From Desulfoscipio geothermicus (lineage in GTDB: Bacteria > Bacillota > Desulfotomaculia > Desulfotomaculales > Desulfallaceae): 64,000 bases of DNA. Positions within the stretch are counted from its first letter, which is position 1; each line of letters opens with the position of its first letter. Of the stretch, positions 1 through 25,451 are shown piece after piece. The notes below the pieces were generated by a model. It was not told where the DNA came from. It was given only the letters and a program-made list of their open reading frames with translations, and did not search any database. Location of the stretch: assembly GCA_016841205.1 (NCBI GenBank), contig JAENZP010000008.1, positions 1 to 64,000 of the forward strand, in the 5' to 3' direction. Both the position numbers and the translations under genes were made by a program.

Positions 1-102
1 AGCCCAGCAAAACGGTTTCATTTTTTCATCTGTCTACTTGACAGGGAGCAGTTCAGGTGACATCCGCAAGGGGGTTTTCAACGTTTTAAACATTGAACAT
101 GG

Positions 103-14399: not shown

Positions 14400-16061
14400 G
14401 TGTTTTTTCGTAAAATAACCAGCCGGAGCAATGGTAAAGAATACACCTACTTAAAATTAATAGAGAATTATAGAGAAGGTGATAAAGTAAAACAACGTGT
14501 CGTTGCTAACCTGGGCAGTATGGATAAATTGACACCTGAAAAGGTCAATGGCTTGATTGCCGGTCTTTCCAAAATATGCGGCATAGCACGCCAGTCTAAC
14601 AATCTGGAAACTAATAAAATATTGCGCTATGGAGAAGTCATGGCTATCCATAAAATGTGGGAATTATTGGGCGTGGATAAGATTATTGGGGACGCGGTTG
14701 GATCAAGCCCGGATTATGAACTACTGAATATACCTTTGCTGGTTGAATTGATGGTAATTAACCAAATTATTAATAAGCAATATGAGCAATCTATTAGTGA
14801 TTGGTATAAGTGTTTGTATATGCCATCATTATTGGGTAAAGAATTTACTATGCATCATTTTTACCGGGCATTGGATGTGATTGACGATTTTAAGGAAGAA
14901 CTGGAGAAAAAATTATTTGAAAAATTGAATTCGTTGATGTACATCAATACTGACCTAGCCTTTTGTCTGCTCACTGCGGGTATGATTAAGCCGGCACCGC
15001 GAGAGCAATTGAATTTAACTTCTTATGGTAGATATATCCTTGGAGATCCCGTAGGGTATCGAAAGGTGAACTTCGGCATGCTGGTTAGCCGGGGTAGCAT
15101 GCCTTTGGGACATTGTATTTTGCGCGAAACGTCTGAGGATCGTGAACTAAGAAGTATAACGGATTATCTGAAGGAAAGCTTTGATATAGATAAATGTATT
15201 TTTGTAGGTGATCGCAGTATCATTAATTGCCCTAACTTGGAAATTTTAGTCGCAAACAATTACAATTATATTATTGGCAGTAAATTAATGAATCAGCGAG
15301 ACCGTGAGCTATTTATCCGGGAATGGCATACAAACAAACATGAATTCCTGCAAATGTCCGAAGATTTATGGTACAAGGAAATTAAGGCTGATGGTACCCG
15401 TTACCTACTATGTGGCAATCCTATGATTGCTGAACAAATGAAGGTCCTTCTAGTTGAACGGCTTCACAACGTAGATAATGAATTGAAGTCTGTTCAAGAG
15501 GCAGTTGAGGGTAGCCGCAGCATTGATGGTAAATTAGCATTTAATAAAGATTTGCCCGTTTTTAAAAGTAATTATTGCTGTAAATATTTTGAATGGCATT
15601 ACGACGAATTAGCCATGAAATTTAGTTATCGTCGAAGAGATGACTTGCTGGAACAAGACGCAGACCTGGCGGGGGCTTTTATATTGGAAACAAATAACGA
15701 CTTTCTCAGGGGACAGGAGATACTTAAAGCATATGCGAGTCTTGCTGTATTAGCTGAGTCATTTAGTGAAATAAAGTATTTTGAACCCTGGCCAAATCTA
15801 CTGCATGCTGAACAAAAAGTGTCTGCCTATACATTCGTTTGCATTCTAGCTGCTATACTGGAAAAAACTATGGAAAGATTAATGCGACAGGCAGGATTGT
15901 CTTTAAATACGCGCCAAGCGCTGTTATTACTTGAAGACATAAAAGTAGTTATTAATCAAATTAACGGCCAAGAATTTAAATCGATAACCAATATTTCCAA
16001 GTCCCAGGAGGATATATTAAATGCTATCGGTTTGTTTAAAGAACAACGTGTAATAGTTTAA
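14400..16061 (+). CDS. IS1634/IS4-type transposase-like protein, catalytic Asp missing
   Basis: A 553-residue full-length open frame. The N-terminus (GKEYTYLKLIENYREGDKVK, then RVVANLGSMDKLTPEKV) is the hallmark start of IS1634-family transposases. The second acidic motif is kept as FVGDRSIINCPNLE, and the glutamate motif can be aligned as LAESFSEIKY. The first motif, normally YDVTTLYF, reads MYINTDLAF, so the first catalytic Asp is replaced. No terminal inverted repeats are evident. It has its own promoter, a long leader, GTG start with GGCGGTGG, and a terminator shared with the convergent gene. Either it is an inactive IS relic that has stayed in frame, or a host-adopted derivative. Transposition activity is unlikely. 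Confidence 0.75.
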   Translation: MFFRKITSRSNGKEYTYLKLIENYREGDKVKQRVVANLGSMDKLTPEKVNGLIAGLSKICGIARQSNNLETNKILRYGEVMAIHKMWELLGVDKIIGDAVGSSPDYELLNIPLLVELMVINQIINKQYEQSISDWYKCLYMPSLLGKEFTMHHFYRALDVIDDFKEELEKKLFEKLNSLMYINTDLAFCLLTAGMIKPAPREQLNLTSYGRYILGDPVGYRKVNFGMLVSRGSMPLGHCILRETSEDRELRSITDYLKESFDIDKCIFVGDRSIINCPNLEILVANNYNYIIGSKLMNQRDRELFIREWHTNKHEFLQMSEDLWYKEIKADGTRYLLCGNPMIAEQMKVLLVERLHNVDNELKSVQEAVEGSRSIDGKLAFNKDLPVFKSNYCCKYFEWHYDELAMKFSYRRRDDLLEQDADLAGAFILETNNDFLRGQEILKAYASLAVLAESFSEIKYFEPWPNLLHAEQKVSAYTFVCILAAILEKTMERLMRQAGLSLNTRQALLLLEDIKVVINQINGQEFKSITNISKSQEDILNAIGLFKEQRVIV

Positions 16062-19853: not shown

Positions 19854-20109
19854 CAAAAGCAAAGTACCTCTCTCTCTGGTTTTGGTGTGATTACCAATAC
19901 TATCTCAAAAGAAGAGTGCTTTGCTTAATTCTTTTTCCGTTTGAAAATGTTTTTTAATCCTAGTTTTAGCCATATGGTTGCTATAAATAATTATTATATT
20001 AGCAAGAAGTTTTATAAATTATTTCAATTGGTTACTAAATTAGTTTATTGATATACTTAATTTGTTTTACATGTTAATTTAATTAATTTATGAACGAAGG
20101 GAAATAGTT

Positions 20110-20844
20110 TTGGTTTCCAAGATAAAGATTATTATATCCATTTTATTACTAGGCTTTTTAATTTATAAATTGGACTGGCTGGCCTTTTAAGACGCTTTCA
20201 TAACGGCAAATCTTGGTTGGCTGCTTTTGGTTGTAATACTCATCGTGTTCTCTATGGTTGTAAGCGTAGAAAAACGGTCGCAAATTTTAAAGGCAGAGGG
20301 GATCTATCTGCGCTGGTACCAGCTTTGGAAGGTATATTGGATTGAATCTTTTTCAACAACTTTCTTCATTCCAGTATTGGGGGCGAAGGGATTAGAATTT
20401 TTCTCGTTGACCGCAACATCTCAAATATGGCAGGTGTGGCTTCATCAGTGATCGTTGAGCTTCTTCTGGCCACCCTGGGCTTAGCCCTGACAGGGTTACT
20501 AGCAGGCTTTGTGGTAAAGTCTAATTGGCAGGTGAGCTGGCTTTTTATTATGCTCACCCTGGTTGCAATAGGTCTGCTACTTTTCTTAATGTGGGGGAAC
20601 ATGCCCACATTTATTGCTAAGTGGTTTTATGCGCGGTTTCCTCTCACATGGCCAGGATGTGCGTGGTCACGGTAACAGGAGGTTCATAGCAGGCTGCCTA
20701 TCGGTATTATTCCAACTTACCGTAGTCGTAGTGAACTACGCTATTTTTCGCGGCCTCCATGTTAACTCCTTGGGCTGGTTGGAATTAGTTTATATCATAC
20801 CTGCCATATCCGCCATCGCAATGATTCCCGTCGGGATTAACTGA
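20110..20844 (+). pseudogene. Broken lysylphosphatidylglycerol-synthase-like (flippase-type) membrane protein
   Basis: Starts at TTG 20110 behind AAGGGA. The frame reads as the N-terminus of a UPF0104/LPG-synthase transmembrane protein (SKIKIIISILLLGFLIYKLD). It has TAA at 20188-20190, continues in frame to about 20385, shifts at the G-run 20377-20383 (VDRNISNMAGVASSVIVELL is the conserved core in the new frame), and shifts back near 20650 for the FQLTVVVVNYAI and IPVGIN part. The C-terminus after GIN is lost. The two shifts compensate each other. Homologues are multi-pass flippase-like proteins of envelope lipid metabolism. Together the stop and two shifts argue for real decay and not a single base error. 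Confidence 0.7.
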
Positions 20845-20998
20845 TAACCGGGATAAGGGCGTGGATGGGGATTACTCACCGGAAATGACGCCGGAGGTAA
20901 ACTAGTTGGTAGATCCTTGCTGATCCCGGATGACAATTCTTAGCAGGTCCATCTAAATTCTTTTGAGTATTAAGATAAAGACAAGGAGGTGATAAGTC

Positions 20999-21712
20999 AT
21001 GAAAAACATATTCCGTGGGTATAAGGGGAAATTATTGTTGCTGGTTATTCTCGGCTGTATATACTTTTTTGTTCCTTTGGTCAAGGTCAATATTAACCAG
21101 GCCTTCTTTATCTTAAGCAACGTGGATGTGGAGATGGCGCGAGGCTATATTTTGAGTTTTGGCATCTGGGCACCCATTGTTTCCTTTACCTTGATGGTGT
21201 TTCAGTCTGTTGCGGCACCTCTGCCGGCATTCATTATTACTTTTGCCAACGCTGGACTCTTCGGTTGGATATACGGTGCCATTCTTTCCTGGTCAAGCGC
21301 GATGGCAGGGGCGGTGCTCTGTTTTTATATTGCCAGATACCTGGGCAGGGATACGGTAGTAAAATTTACTTCCGTCAAAGCGCTTAAAAGCGTCGATGAT
21401 TTTTTTGAACATTACGGTAAATATGCTATCCTAATCGCCCGTCTCCTACCATTTATTTCCTTTGATATCGTCAGCTATGCTGCTGGATTGACCTCAATGG
21501 GGTTTTGGCCGTTTTTTATTGCTACCGGGCTAGGTCAATTGCCGGCTACAATAATATACTCCTATATCGGCGGAATGCTCACAGGCGGAGTAAAGACAAT
21601 GGTATTTGGTCTTTTAATCCTTTTTGCCTTGAGTGCTTTGCTTGTACTTTTAAAGAATGTCTGGAAAGATAAAAAGATAAAGGAGGGAAATAAATTTGCG
21701 GAAGAGATTTAA
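20999..21712 (+). CDS. TVP38/TMEM64 (VTT domain) membrane protein
   Basis: A 237-residue integral membrane protein with about six hydrophobic segments. VTT-domain marks are FANAGLFGWIYGAILSW, an amphipathic FEHYGKYAILIARLLPFISFD re-entrant region and YAAGLTSMGFWPF, followed by GQLPATIIYSYIG. DedA/VTT proteins are lipid scramblase or transport-related; the exact role here is unknown. ATG 20999 has AAGGAGGTGAT. It overlaps the rhodanese gene by 17 nt, so the two are translationally coupled. VTT and rhodanese domains are often neighbours or fused in other bacteria, which suggests a joint envelope or sulfur function. Confidence 0.85.
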   Translation: MKNIFRGYKGKLLLLVILGCIYFFVPLVKVNINQAFFILSNVDVEMARGYILSFGIWAPIVSFTLMVFQSVAAPLPAFIITFANAGLFGWIYGAILSWSSAMAGAVLCFYIARYLGRDTVVKFTSVKALKSVDDFFEHYGKYAILIARLLPFISFDIVSYAAGLTSMGFWPFFIATGLGQLPATIIYSYIGGMLTGGVKTMVFGLLILFALSALLVLLKNVWKDKKIKEGNKFAEEI

Positions 21713-22664
21713 GTACCAGCAGTTGTTGCTTGTACTTCTAGCTCTGGTGCTGACTTTGATCGTCAGTGGCTGTGGTAATAAGCCGGCACCTCTAGACAAT
21801 CAATCAGCTAAGGAATTTGACATCTCGGTTTATCAGAATAACGATTTCCTTATCACACCTCAACAGCTGCATGCCATGTTAGACAGTGAAAATCTGGTCC
21901 TAATTGATTGCAATAAGCCGGATATCTACGCCAAGGAACACCTCCCCGGTGCTATCGGGATTGGCTTGCAGGGTTTCTGTGATACTGTTGGCAAACCTGG
22001 CGACCCGGGCTGGGGGACCATCAAGGATAAGGAAAATTTGCAGAAAACGCTGGCATCATTGGGTATAGACAACAAGAAGACTGTCGTTTTTTACTCGGAT
22101 CTCTCTGCTGGTCCAGGGGCTGATGGCAGGGCTGTCTGGCAGTTAAAGCTGGCTGGGATGGATAATGTAAAGATGCTGGTAGGGGGAGCTACTTCATGGA
22201 AGGAACTAGGGTATCCGACAACAAAAGAAGTTACCCAGCCCAAGCCGGTTACCGGAGTTGTTTTGAAAGATTACGACTATAGCTATCTGGCGACCAAAGA
22301 TTTGATATTTGAAAACTTAGGCAAGCAGGTGTTTATTGACTGCAGAACAGAAGGGGAATATCAAGGTTCCCAAAAAGCCGGGGAACCACGTGGAGGACAC
22401 ATTATAGGGGCAGTAAATCTAGGATGGCAAGATTTGCTTAATAAAAACGCTGGCTACACCATCAAGAGCCCTGATGAAATTAAAACGCTCATGGCCTCCA
22501 TTGGTGTCCATCAGGAAGATGAATTTACTATTTACTGAACGATGGGTATCAGATCTGGTTATATGACCATGATCCTCAGAGCCGTAGGCTTTGAGAAAGC
22601 TAGAAATTATGAAGGCTCTATCTATGAATGGAGCGGGGACCAGAACATGCCGATGGAGAAATAA
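21696..22664 (+). CDS. Tandem rhodanese lipoprotein; in-frame TGA at the active-site Cys (candidate selenoprotein)
   Basis: Starts at TTG 21696, 8 nt after AGGAGGG. The N-terminus is a lipoprotein signal with lipobox LIVSGC (Cys26). Two rhodanese domains follow (about 55-185 and 210-322). The first has VFYSDLSAG in its active loop and lacks the Cys, as usual for the inactive half of thiosulfate sulfurtransferases. In the second the loop reads DEFTIY-TGA-TMGIRSGYM: codon 281 (22536-22538) is TGA exactly where active rhodaneses have the persulfide Cys. The same frame stays open for 41 further sense codons with a normal C-terminus (YEGSIYEWSGDQNMPMEK), then TAA at 22662-22664. Either TGA encodes selenocysteine, or one base change has killed the site. 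I favour selenocysteine because of the exact position and the preserved downstream frame. If read as a stop, the product ends at 22538 with 280 residues and no active loop. Confidence 0.8.
22552..22574 (+). promoter_or_regulatory. Candidate bacterial SECIS hairpin downstream of the TGA codon
   Basis: Eight base pairs, GATCTGGT (22552-22559) with ACCA (22566-22569) and GATC (22571-22574), one bulged T at 22570, 6-nt loop. It starts 13 nt after TGA, with the loop about 21 nt after it, close to the geometry of known bacterial SECIS elements. A G in the first loop positions is only present if the inner pairs open. An alternative fold (22542-22570) places a G first in a 12-nt loop. This is a reading by eye and not a computed fold. 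Confidence 0.4.
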
Positions 22665-22687
22665 CGAGACATGAACTATACGGGTAT

Positions 22688-22720
22688 TAAAAAGAGCGGT
22701 TTTCAATCGCTCTTTTATTC
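22688..22720 (+). terminator. Rho-independent terminator after the rhodanese gene
   Basis: Stem AAAAGAGCG (22690-22698) / CGCTCTTTT (22708-22716), 9-nt loop, arm and tail rich in T. It lies 25 nt after the TAA at 22664 and not after the TGA, consistent with the gene extending past the TGA. Confidence 0.88.
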
Positions 22721-22818
22721 ATTATTATCATATCTCAATATATCTGGGTTGGCCTAAACATTAAGACGTGGGCAACAATAAGGTGCTGCTGAAATTATTT
22801 GACATCAGAATCTTGCCT

Positions 22819-22858
22819 ATAATTAAAGGGGACCGCTGTTTGGAATCCCCTTAATTAT
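22819..22858. terminator. AT/GC hairpin downstream of a small minus-strand gene
   Basis: Arms ATAATTAAAGGGGA (22819-22832) and TCCCCTTAATTAT (22846-22858), one bulge, 13-nt loop. The outer arm is A/T only, so it can act as a terminator in both directions. It lies 36 nt beyond the stop of the small gene at 22895. Confidence 0.55.
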
Positions 22859-22894
22859 AAACCTAACAATATCTCTTCCTTTTTATCATCTAGC

Positions 22895-23044
22895 CTAGTG
22901 TTCCGGGTGCCGGTGTACCGCAAGCAGGTAAATCTCCTGCCCGCCCGGGGTGTTGTTCATTTCTTTTTCTGCACTGATTAAATAATTCAACTGCTCTTCA
23001 CTTAGTCTGGCGACTTCCATTCCCTTGGTATTGATATTGGTCAT
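22895..23044 (-). CDS. Small hypothetical protein (49 aa)
   Basis: Minus-strand gene with an excellent AAAAGGAGG site 8 nt before ATG 23044-23042, running 49 codons to TAG. The product begins MTNINTKGMEVARLSEEQL and ends IYLLAVHRHPEH. It looks helical and soluble, without cysteine or membrane segment. I do not recognise a family. It is transcribed away from feoAB, and the divergent gap 23045-23166 is AT-rich. Confidence 0.65.
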   Translation of the reverse strand: MTNINTKGMEVARLSEEQLNYLISAEKEMNNTPGGQEIYLLAVHRHPEH

Positions 23045-23166
23045 GTATTATTGCCTCCTTTTGGAAATTTATACGTTGGTAATAACCTGTTATTATAGAC
23101 AGGCATTTATGACGCTAAATAATATTTTTACCGGTTTATTTTTTTATAAACTCTATGGATTAATTA

Positions 23167-23195
23167 TTGACCGGGTTGTCTTTTGAAAATATAAT
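23167..23195 (+). promoter_or_regulatory. Sigma-A-type promoter of feoAB
   Basis: TTGACC (23167-23172), 17-nt spacer, TATAAT (23190-23195), 46 nt before the feoA ATG. A direct Fur or DtxR box was not evident, although iron control would be expected for feo genes. Confidence 0.75.
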
Positions 23196-23241
23196 ATAAA
23201 TGAGAACGGTTTTCTTTATCAATGACTTGGGGGTGATCCTG

Positions 23242-23514
23242 ATGATGCTGGATAAAGTTAAGCGAGGCGACTTGATAAAAATTGTATCTATTGGCGAAGC
23301 CGGAGTCAGAGAAAATGCCTTGCGTATGGGCATTGATGAAGGGTCGATTTTAGTCTGTGCTGAAGTAATACCCGCCGGTCCAATAGTGCTGAGAAAACAT
23401 AGGCAGGAAGTAGCCATTGGCCGAAGCCTGATGTGTAATATTGCTGTCGAACTGCTTGCCCGGGCCGGCGAGGCTAGACCGGCTTGTATTAATTTGACAG
23501 GTGAAATGTGTTAA
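23242..23514 (+). CDS. feoA: FeoA-type ferrous iron transport accessory protein
   Basis: A 90-residue SH3-like FeoA protein: KVKRGDLIKIVSIGEAGVRENALRMGI then EVIPAGPIVLRKHRQEVAIGRS. Known role: a small cytoplasmic partner needed for FeoB activity. The ATG at 23242 has GGGGGTGAT upstream; the open frame from 23200 lacks a site. The stop overlaps the start of feoB, giving a coupled feoAB operon behind a good promoter. Confidence 0.88.
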   Translation: MMLDKVKRGDLIKIVSIGEAGVRENALRMGIDEGSILVCAEVIPAGPIVLRKHRQEVAIGRSLMCNIAVELLARAGEARPACINLTGEMC

Positions 23515-25451
23515 ACATGATTAACAAAATAATCAAAGAAACCGGTTTGGGACAAAAAAAAATAGTATTAGTAGGTAACCCCAATGTCGGTAAGTCAGTT
23601 TTTTTTCACCAGTTAACTGGTCAGTATGTAGATGTGTCAAATTACCCGGGTACTACAATAGAATTTTGCTGCAGCAAGTTAGGGGATGCTTTTTTAATGG
23701 ATACTCCGGGGGTGTACGGGCTTTCCTCTAATACTCCCGAGGAGTCGCTGGTGCGGGATACCGTGCTAACTGCGGATATAGTAATAAATGTGGTGGATGC
23801 GGTGCATTTGGACCGTGATTTTTTTCTCACTTGCCAGCTTGCCGATATGGGCATACCTATGATAGTTGTTTTAAATATGGTTGATGAATTGCTGGCGCGG
23901 GGGCTGAAATTAAACCTGGTGGAACTGAAGCAGCGGCTAGGTGTACCGGTTGTGCCAATGGTAGCCACTAAAGGTAAAGGTATTGATTTGCTGAAGCGGC
24001 GTCTACACCAGGCCCGTCCCGGGCGGGTGTCTGATGTGGTGGATGGACTATTGCTAAATTACCCCGGTTTAAGACGGGGCGATGCCCTGCTGATACTGGA
24101 GGGTGACCCGGAAGTGGCAGCCCGCTGTAATTTGGCGCCAGGGGGAGAAAAGGGAATAATATTCGCTGACCGGCGCCGGCGGGCTAACGAGATTGCTTCA
24201 GCAGTTTTGCGAGAGAAGACTGCCGATACGGCTTTTGCCACCCGGCTGGGCCACTGGTTAATTCGTCCGATTACCGGCATACCTGCACTTTTACTGGTTC
24301 TGTGGTTATTTTATGAGCTGGTAGGAGTGTTTTTTGCGCAGATAGTAGTTGGCTATACCGAAGGCTTAATGCAAGGCTGCTACGAGCCCTGGGTACGTTC
24401 ATTGTTTGCTAATGTTATTGATCTGCAATCATTGGTGGGGGTAATGCTGACCGGACAATTCGGGTTGCTCACTATGGCCATTACCTATGTGCTGGGATTG
24501 TTATTTCCCCTGGTGCTGGGCTTTTATTTGGTGCTAGCTGTGCTGGAAGATTCAGGTTACATGCCCCGGATAGCCATCTTAATGGATCGGCTAATGAGTT
24601 TTTTGGGACTTAATGGGCAGGCGGTCATTCCAATGGTACTTGGTTTCGGCTGTGTAACTATGGCCTTAATCACTACCCGGTTGCTAACCACCGAGCGGGA
24701 ACGGCGTATTGCAACCTTATTATTGGCCCTTGCAGTGCCCTGCTCGGCGCAATTGGCTTTTGTGACGGCTATTCTGGGTTCTCTTGGCCTGGGGTACATG
24801 TTATTATACGGATTAATTATCTTTAGCCTGATGACCGGGGTGGGCACTGTACTAAACCGGTTTATGACCGGGGGCAGTGTGCCGCTGCTGCTAGACCTGC
24901 CTCCCATGCGTTTTCCCAGGTTGGATAATGTACTGCGTAAATCTTGGACCAGAACCTTTAGTTTTATTAAAGAAGCGTTCCCCGTTTTCCTCGGGGGCGC
25001 GTTTCTGTTGAGCTTATTAAGTATAACAGGGTTAATGAATAAAATTGAGCAGATCATGGAACCATTGACCATAAGTTGGTTATATCTGCCTAATGAAACT
25101 GCCAGCGCCTTCATCATGGGATTTATCCGCCGTGATTTCGGTACCGCCAGGATTATGGGAATACCTATGGATCCACTGCAAACCTTTGTAGCCCTGGTGA
25201 CCCTGACTATGTTTGTACCCTGTATAGCTTCCACCATGGTAATATTTAAGGAGCGGGGCTGGCGCGAGGGAACGGCGATCTGGCTATTGATTTCGGTACT
25301 GGCTTTTATGGGCGGCGGGTTATTGTCCCGTTTGTTAAGTTTTGCGTATGGTTTATACCCGGCTATCACGCTGCCGCTTACCGCCTTAATTATATTGGCC
25401 ATACTATTTGTTATAGTGACTATTTCCCGGTGGCGGCGAACTCTTGGTTGA
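23508..25451 (+). CDS. feoB: FeoB ferrous iron transporter
   Basis: A 647-residue protein with an N-terminal G domain (G1 GNPNVGKS about 23-30, G3 DTPGVYGL, NMVD as the G4-like motif) and a C-terminal membrane part with two Gate-like regions (about residues 250-640). Length is in the normal range of compact FeoB proteins. It moves Fe2+ into the cell, feeding iron-sulfur and heme enzymes of an anaerobe. Start is GTG 23508 (AGGTG close upstream), overlapping the feoA stop; ATG 23517 is the alternative. An opposite-strand open frame of 301 codons here is a shadow. Confidence 0.93.
   Translation: MLNMINKIIKETGLGQKKIVLVGNPNVGKSVFFHQLTGQYVDVSNYPGTTIEFCCSKLGDAFLMDTPGVYGLSSNTPEESLVRDTVLTADIVINVVDAVHLDRDFFLTCQLADMGIPMIVVLNMVDELLARGLKLNLVELKQRLGVPVVPMVATKGKGIDLLKRRLHQARPGRVSDVVDGLLLNYPGLRRGDALLILEGDPEVAARCNLAPGGEKGIIFADRRRRANEIASAVLREKTADTAFATRLGHWLIRPITGIPALLLVLWLFYELVGVFFAQIVVGYTEGLMQGCYEPWVRSLFANVIDLQSLVGVMLTGQFGLLTMAITYVLGLLFPLVLGFYLVLAVLEDSGYMPRIAILMDRLMSFLGLNGQAVIPMVLGFGCVTMALITTRLLTTERERRIATLLLALAVPCSAQLAFVTAILGSLGLGYMLLYGLIIFSLMTGVGTVLNRFMTGGSVPLLLDLPPMRFPRLDNVLRKSWTRTFSFIKEAFPVFLGGAFLLSLLSITGLMNKIEQIMEPLTISWLYLPNETASAFIMGFIRRDFGTARIMGIPMDPLQTFVALVTLTMFVPCIASTMVIFKERGWREGTAIWLLISVLAFMGGGLLSRLLSFAYGLYPAITLPLTALIILAILFVIVTISRWRRTLG

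Follow-up and report, generated by a model that had tools for sequence, protein, structure and literature searches.

Rhodaneses containing selenocysteine (Sec) have been predicted among COG2897 proteins from the Sargasso Sea and Global Ocean Sampling metagenomes (PMC1088965, PMC2398784), and a 2026 review lists five forms of rhodanese selenoprotein. The closest of these is the COG2897 (SseA-type) 'rhodanese-like form 4, UxxG', which was predicted from an in-frame UGA, cysteine (Cys) homologues and a selenocysteine insertion sequence (SECIS) (PMC1088965, PMC2398784, PMC9312934, PMC13188914). Here we describe a gene of the same COG2897 type, also with Sec in a UxxG motif, in a 64,000-nucleotide (nt) stretch of the Desulfoscipio geothermicus genome (contig JAENZP010000008.1, positions 1 to 64,000, hereafter the window). 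Judging from the sequence, we consider it about 95% probable that the gene encodes a genuine selenoprotein, namely, a membrane-anchored extracytoplasmic tandem rhodanese with Sec at catalytic residue 281. In the texts searched, form 4, which comprises few marine sequences and is compared here by description, is not mentioned as a lipoprotein, with a VTT partner, with a clade in Bacillota and Actinomycetota or with a far hairpin. Sec in COG2897 rhodaneses having already been predicted, what is new here is the clade of Sec tandem-rhodanese lipoproteins, its VTT partner and a SECIS with a GUN-loop hairpin 45 nt from the UGA.

Other described relatives are more distant. TsoB (NF045694, 'form 5'), a rhodanese/DsbD fusion-like selenoprotein, also has a Sec-containing rhodanese domain and is found in anaerobes, but it contains Sec twice and includes a DsbD-like part; the D. 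geothermicus protein scores 27.7 bits against this model, whose cut-off is 805. Mycobacterial CysA2/CysA3 and the Thermus protein 1uar share the tandem rhodanese fold with a catalytic second domain, but have Cys instead of Sec, are of the cytosolic type without a lipobox and differ in their loop residues. In an NCBIfam scan of the Sec rhodanese no model reached its cut-off, and automatic annotation therefore probably labels the gene a truncated rhodanese.

The gene, delimited with the help of homologues, extends over positions 21696–22664 of the forward strand, on which the Shine-Dalgarno sequence, hairpins, VTT gene and terminator-like repeat described below also lie, and encodes 322 residues from a TTG start to a TAA stop if TGA is read as Sec. 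The initial annotation, based on 22500–22664, correctly covered the TGA and the 3′ end, whereas the gene as a whole begins at 21696. The only internal stop is the TGA at 22536–22538 (residue 281), in the context FTIY-U-TMGIRSGYM; as had been claimed, 41 open codons follow it up to the natural TAA, and the frame carries no other damage. Pfam recognizes two PF00581 rhodanese domains (E-value = 1.7e−31) with the catalytic residue in the second, which is the COG2897/SseA-type arrangement. Domain 1 (residues 54–170, positions 21855–22205; Pfam and active-loop alignment) has Ser134 at the active-Cys position, the usual state of a non-catalytic rhodanese domain. Conserved Cys72 of this domain was considered as a partner of Sec and dropped, because Ala is found there in locus L021. 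In domain 2, profile alignment to solved structures matches residue 281 with the catalytic Cys of the YCRIxERS loop in 1uar and 8k55, in agreement with the initial annotation. According to sequence and structure alignment, the active loop consists of six residues starting at Sec (U281-T-M-G-I-R286), as in sulfurtransferases. The AlphaFold2 model, with Sec entered as Cys, displays a tandem rhodanese fold (mean predicted local distance difference test score, pLDDT, of 82.6), for which the top Foldseek matches are CysA2/CysA3, 1uar and other thiosulfate sulfurtransferases. The N-terminus has a signal peptide with the lipobox LIVSG-C26 (21696–21776; sequence and alignment), and C26 is invariant across 12 aligned homologues.

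Close homologues of the readthrough protein (49–84% identity) come from Sporotomaculum, Pelotomaculum, other Desulfotomaculaceae, Syntrophomonadaceae, Tepidibacter, Clostridium bins, Aquicultor and another actinomycetote, and thus span many genera and two phyla, Bacillota and Actinomycetota. Among the species with an orthologue is Sporotomaculum syntrophicum. Codon 281 is TGA in all 19 sequences (these homologues and the window's own), and the frame is open to the same C-terminus, the last 41 codons being conserved at the protein level. In one case (genome G011, locus L020) the alignment segments are broken upstream of the TGA, possibly owing to an assembly or frameshift problem, but the TGA itself is kept. 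A tree built from 41 homologues places all 19 TGA carriers in a single clade (support 100/99). Those with a different codon at this position branch outside it, at no more than 39% identity, and Cys forms are found only there; in the more distant VTT-paired homologues residue 281 is in all cases Cys within a CTxGIRS loop. The in-frame UGA is thus located at a position that holds Cys or Sec among homologues, as expected of a bacterial selenoprotein, and the comparison at residue 281 proposed in the initial annotation supports Sec. At the level of sequence, it can be regarded as established that this tandem rhodanese is extracytoplasmic and has a Sec codon at its catalytic position. Locus L063 was rejected as a TGA carrier, since the stop precedes its start codon and its residue 281 is Cys. 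No relatives of the Sec rhodanese were detected in the viral contigs searched, and the plasmids searched yielded relatives only at ≤33% identity. Elsewhere in the same genome, a segment (locus L031, C36:333034-333156) with 61% identity to residues 282–322 is joined behind an unrelated coding frame and keeps the terminator-like repeat; it was rejected as a second selenoprotein and taken instead for the degraded 3′ end of another copy of the gene.

The genome assembly (36 contigs, 99.9% complete) encodes the Sec machinery of a selenoprotein-producing bacterium, SelA, SelB, SelD and tRNA-Sec, so that the search for selA, selB, selC and selD suggested earlier found them all. selA and selB adjoin on contig C7, and the tRNA-Sec has a UCA anticodon. 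The selD gene contains one in-frame TGA, as do the three genes for the formate dehydrogenase alpha subunit (fdhA), with one TGA in each; a HesB-like selenoprotein is absent from this genome. In the family sample, selD with TGA is present in 16 of 16 genomes. Genes of the dsrA type support the earlier description of the organism as a sulfate (or sulfite) reducer.

The region after the TGA is constrained at the RNA level. The excess of silent-site codon identity is 0.46 in codons 286–300 and 0.06 elsewhere (Mann-Whitney p = 1e−8; p = 1e−6 in columns with invariant residues alone), where same-residue codons of 15 sequences were compared with the expectation from codon usage and the p-values serve as a guide, because the sequences are related and the columns are not independent. 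This freezing is confined to ~45 nt 3′ of the TGA, and although GC content of the loci ranges from ~27 to 50%, the sequence of the element is nearly identical. Almost all sequences fold here into two abutting hairpins, hairpin 1 (HP1, UGA+17..39; 22552–22574 in the window) and hairpin 2 (HP2, UGA+40..60; 22575–22595), both delimited by folding and pair analysis. HP2 has 8–9 base pairs and, in nearly all sequences, a GUN apical loop, which in the window is GUA (22584–22586). Compared with synonymous resampling, the mean folding z-score is −3.0 for the 19 TGA genes versus −0.2 for 22 homologues without TGA, and 95.4% of pair cells hold standard pairs. One HP1 pair (columns 24/31) has changed on both sides, between U-A and A-U. 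RNA structure 3′ of the UGA is thus under selection, as in bacterial selenoprotein genes, and the SECIS-type element together with the conserved TGA bears out the candidate Sec reading of the initial annotation. Rfam has no match in window positions 20000–24000.

In the accepted model of the bacterial SECIS (bSECIS), a small loop with G in the first two positions lies 16–37 nt from the UGA (PMC13188914). The rhodanese element resembles the canonical bSECIS in having a hairpin in the coding region after the UGA and the C-G[U/G]N-G apical pattern in HP2, but differs in that the UGA-to-loop distance is 45 nt and a second hairpin lies between (PMC13188914). Other Sec genes of the genome provide a comparison. 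In the SECIS of selD, an 8-base-pair hairpin carries its GUA loop at a distance of 33 nt from the UGA, and in many family members a small abutting hairpin (15–28) precedes this main hairpin; the small one is partly conserved, with 66% of its cells paired versus 98.5% in the main hairpin. The fdhA genes have a G[U/G] loop ~19 nt from the UGA and no spacer. When the intervening hairpin is subtracted, the linear distances of 45, 33 and 19 nt in the rhodanese, selD and fdhA genes become ~22, ~19 and 19 nt, respectively. Based on this geometry across three gene families and on the loop types, we propose that HP2 is the SelB site and HP1 a spacer. That some bacterial SECIS more generally use a length-variable spacer hairpin between the UGA and the SelB-binding hairpin is a tentative extension, for which the odds appear only slightly unfavourable. 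Among the selD genes of loci L052 and L082-L098, the small hairpin often precedes the main GUN-loop hairpin, an order also observed in the rhodanese gene. Three pairs of the selD SECIS have changed on both sides among 17 sequences.

We infer that the UGA is decoded in vivo by SelB and Sec-tRNA(UCA), directed by the two abutting hairpins within the next 60 nt. SelB would most likely bind the distal hairpin with its C-GUN-G loop, the proximal hairpin acting as a spacer that reduces the effective distance to the UGA. The protein probably acts as a sulfurtransferase or a sulfane-sulfur oxidoreductase in partnership with the VTT membrane protein encoded alongside it. The Sec selenolate would take up sulfane sulfur as an Se−S adduct and, on the outer side of the membrane, transfer it to an acceptor. 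The role of the VTT protein may be to move either the substrate or an associated lipid. The initial annotation's suggestion of a selenopersulfide enzyme is plausible. Rhodanese-fold arsenate reductases and Cdc25 have a seven-residue active loop, whereas sulfurtransferases have six residues; the six residues in the loop of the Sec rhodanese make arsenate or phosphate a less likely substrate than a sulfur or selenium compound.

Several alternatives have to be weighed. Since TGA is one base away from TGC and TGT, and the neighbouring flippase-like gene is truly decayed, the TGA might be a nonsense mutation or a sequencing error at a Cys codon, leaving a pseudogene cut at residue 280, as the initial annotation had cautioned. 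However, the same codon is TGA in every close homologue rather than in this strain alone, the 41 downstream codons are conserved with frozen silent sites, and the decay is that of a separate gene, the rhodanese gene itself being intact; this explanation is practically excluded. It is also very improbable that the UGA is a conserved regulatory stop, with a main product of 280 residues devoid of the catalytic loop and hairpins serving another purpose, such as a limited degree of readthrough by a near-cognate tRNA. Termination competes with Sec insertion at every Sec UGA, and some shorter product is bound to form. Nevertheless, the stop falls exactly on the catalytic residue, for which the more distant VTT-paired homologues invariably have Cys, and every genome of the family sample has a TGA-containing selD.

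Accepting Sec insertion, one may ask whether HP1 alone is the SECIS, HP2 being conserved for another reason. HP1 is at the usual position, with its loop 22 nt from the UGA, near the 19 nt of the genome's own fdhA, and the sole compensatory change is in HP1. We consider this arrangement rather doubtful. Some observations weigh against our own interpretation of the gene and its RNA element. The HP2 loop lies beyond the 16–37 nt range, and the HP1 loop, which is within it, has no G, so that neither hairpin obeys all bSECIS rules; covariation is thin, with one double-sided pair, as the hairpins, HP2 included, hardly vary. In addition, Met283 is located at catalytic Cys +2, where classic thiosulfate sulfurtransferases such as bovine rhodanese have a basic residue, which makes it less likely that the main substrate is plain thiosulfate. 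The selenoprotein could instead be a reductase, acting for example on arsenical, selenium or disulfide substrates, given that redox enzymes make up the majority of known selenoproteins and that some neighbours belong to families whose names refer to arsenosugar synthesis (TIGR04282, TIGR04283 and ArsS). This is unlikely, because the active loop is of the six-residue sulfurtransferase type and not of the seven-residue one, the protein has no further Cys spaced to form a UxxC or CxxU motif with Sec, and arsenosugar-type neighbours are limited to some loci.

The constant neighbour of the Sec rhodanese gene is that of the VTT-domain membrane protein (PF09335; 20999–21712), noted already in the initial annotation; the two genes share 17 nt. 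The VTT gene is directly upstream in all loci, mostly overlapping, although in L044 just the last 35 VTT residues are visible at the contig edge. Cys-type homologues in L027, L033, L060, L061, L064 and L066 also adjoin a VTT gene. The module of VTT and tandem rhodanese is therefore older, or at any rate more widespread, than the Sec form. In the texts searched, no account was found that pairs a rhodanese selenoprotein with a VTT protein, although this does not prove that none exists. The Shine-Dalgarno sequence AAGGAGGG (21680–21687), identified from the sequence, lies 8 nt 5′ of the TTG within the end of the VTT gene. A terminator-like inverted repeat with a T-run, seen by eye at ~22689–22718, follows the TAA, as described earlier.

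Some loci also encode a flippase-like protein (TIGR00374), a BioB-like radical SAM protein, TIGR04282 and TIGR04283 glycosyltransferases and C-GCAxxG-C-C proteins. In L021 and L057, a gene for the radical SAM (seleno)protein ArsS (TIGR04167) is directly upstream of the VTT and Sec rhodanese genes, and several further loci have arsenosugar-type TIGR04282/TIGR04283 glycosyltransferases near the pair. In L057, the Sec rhodanese gene is also immediately followed by another open frame that is rhodanese-like and larger (L057:2-1366, reverse strand). In the window, the decayed flippase-like gene (TIGR00374-type; 20152–20841, upstream) is split over frames with a stop, and its counterparts at the equivalent position in L039, L041 and L042 are intact. 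Farther upstream is an IS1634 family transposase gene (14400–16061), and the iron transport genes feoA/feoB are located downstream of the rhodanese gene.

The Sec rhodanese offers a clean natural test of the maximal distance between the UGA and the SelB hairpin and of its bridging by an intervening hairpin. If true, a spacer-hairpin SECIS would broaden the bSECIS model as now accepted and bring to light selenoproteins missed by current tools. With this family, the known selenoproteins gain a well-supported clade of wide but scattered occurrence, in which an extracytoplasmic sulfur-transfer fold is always accompanied by a VTT membrane protein.
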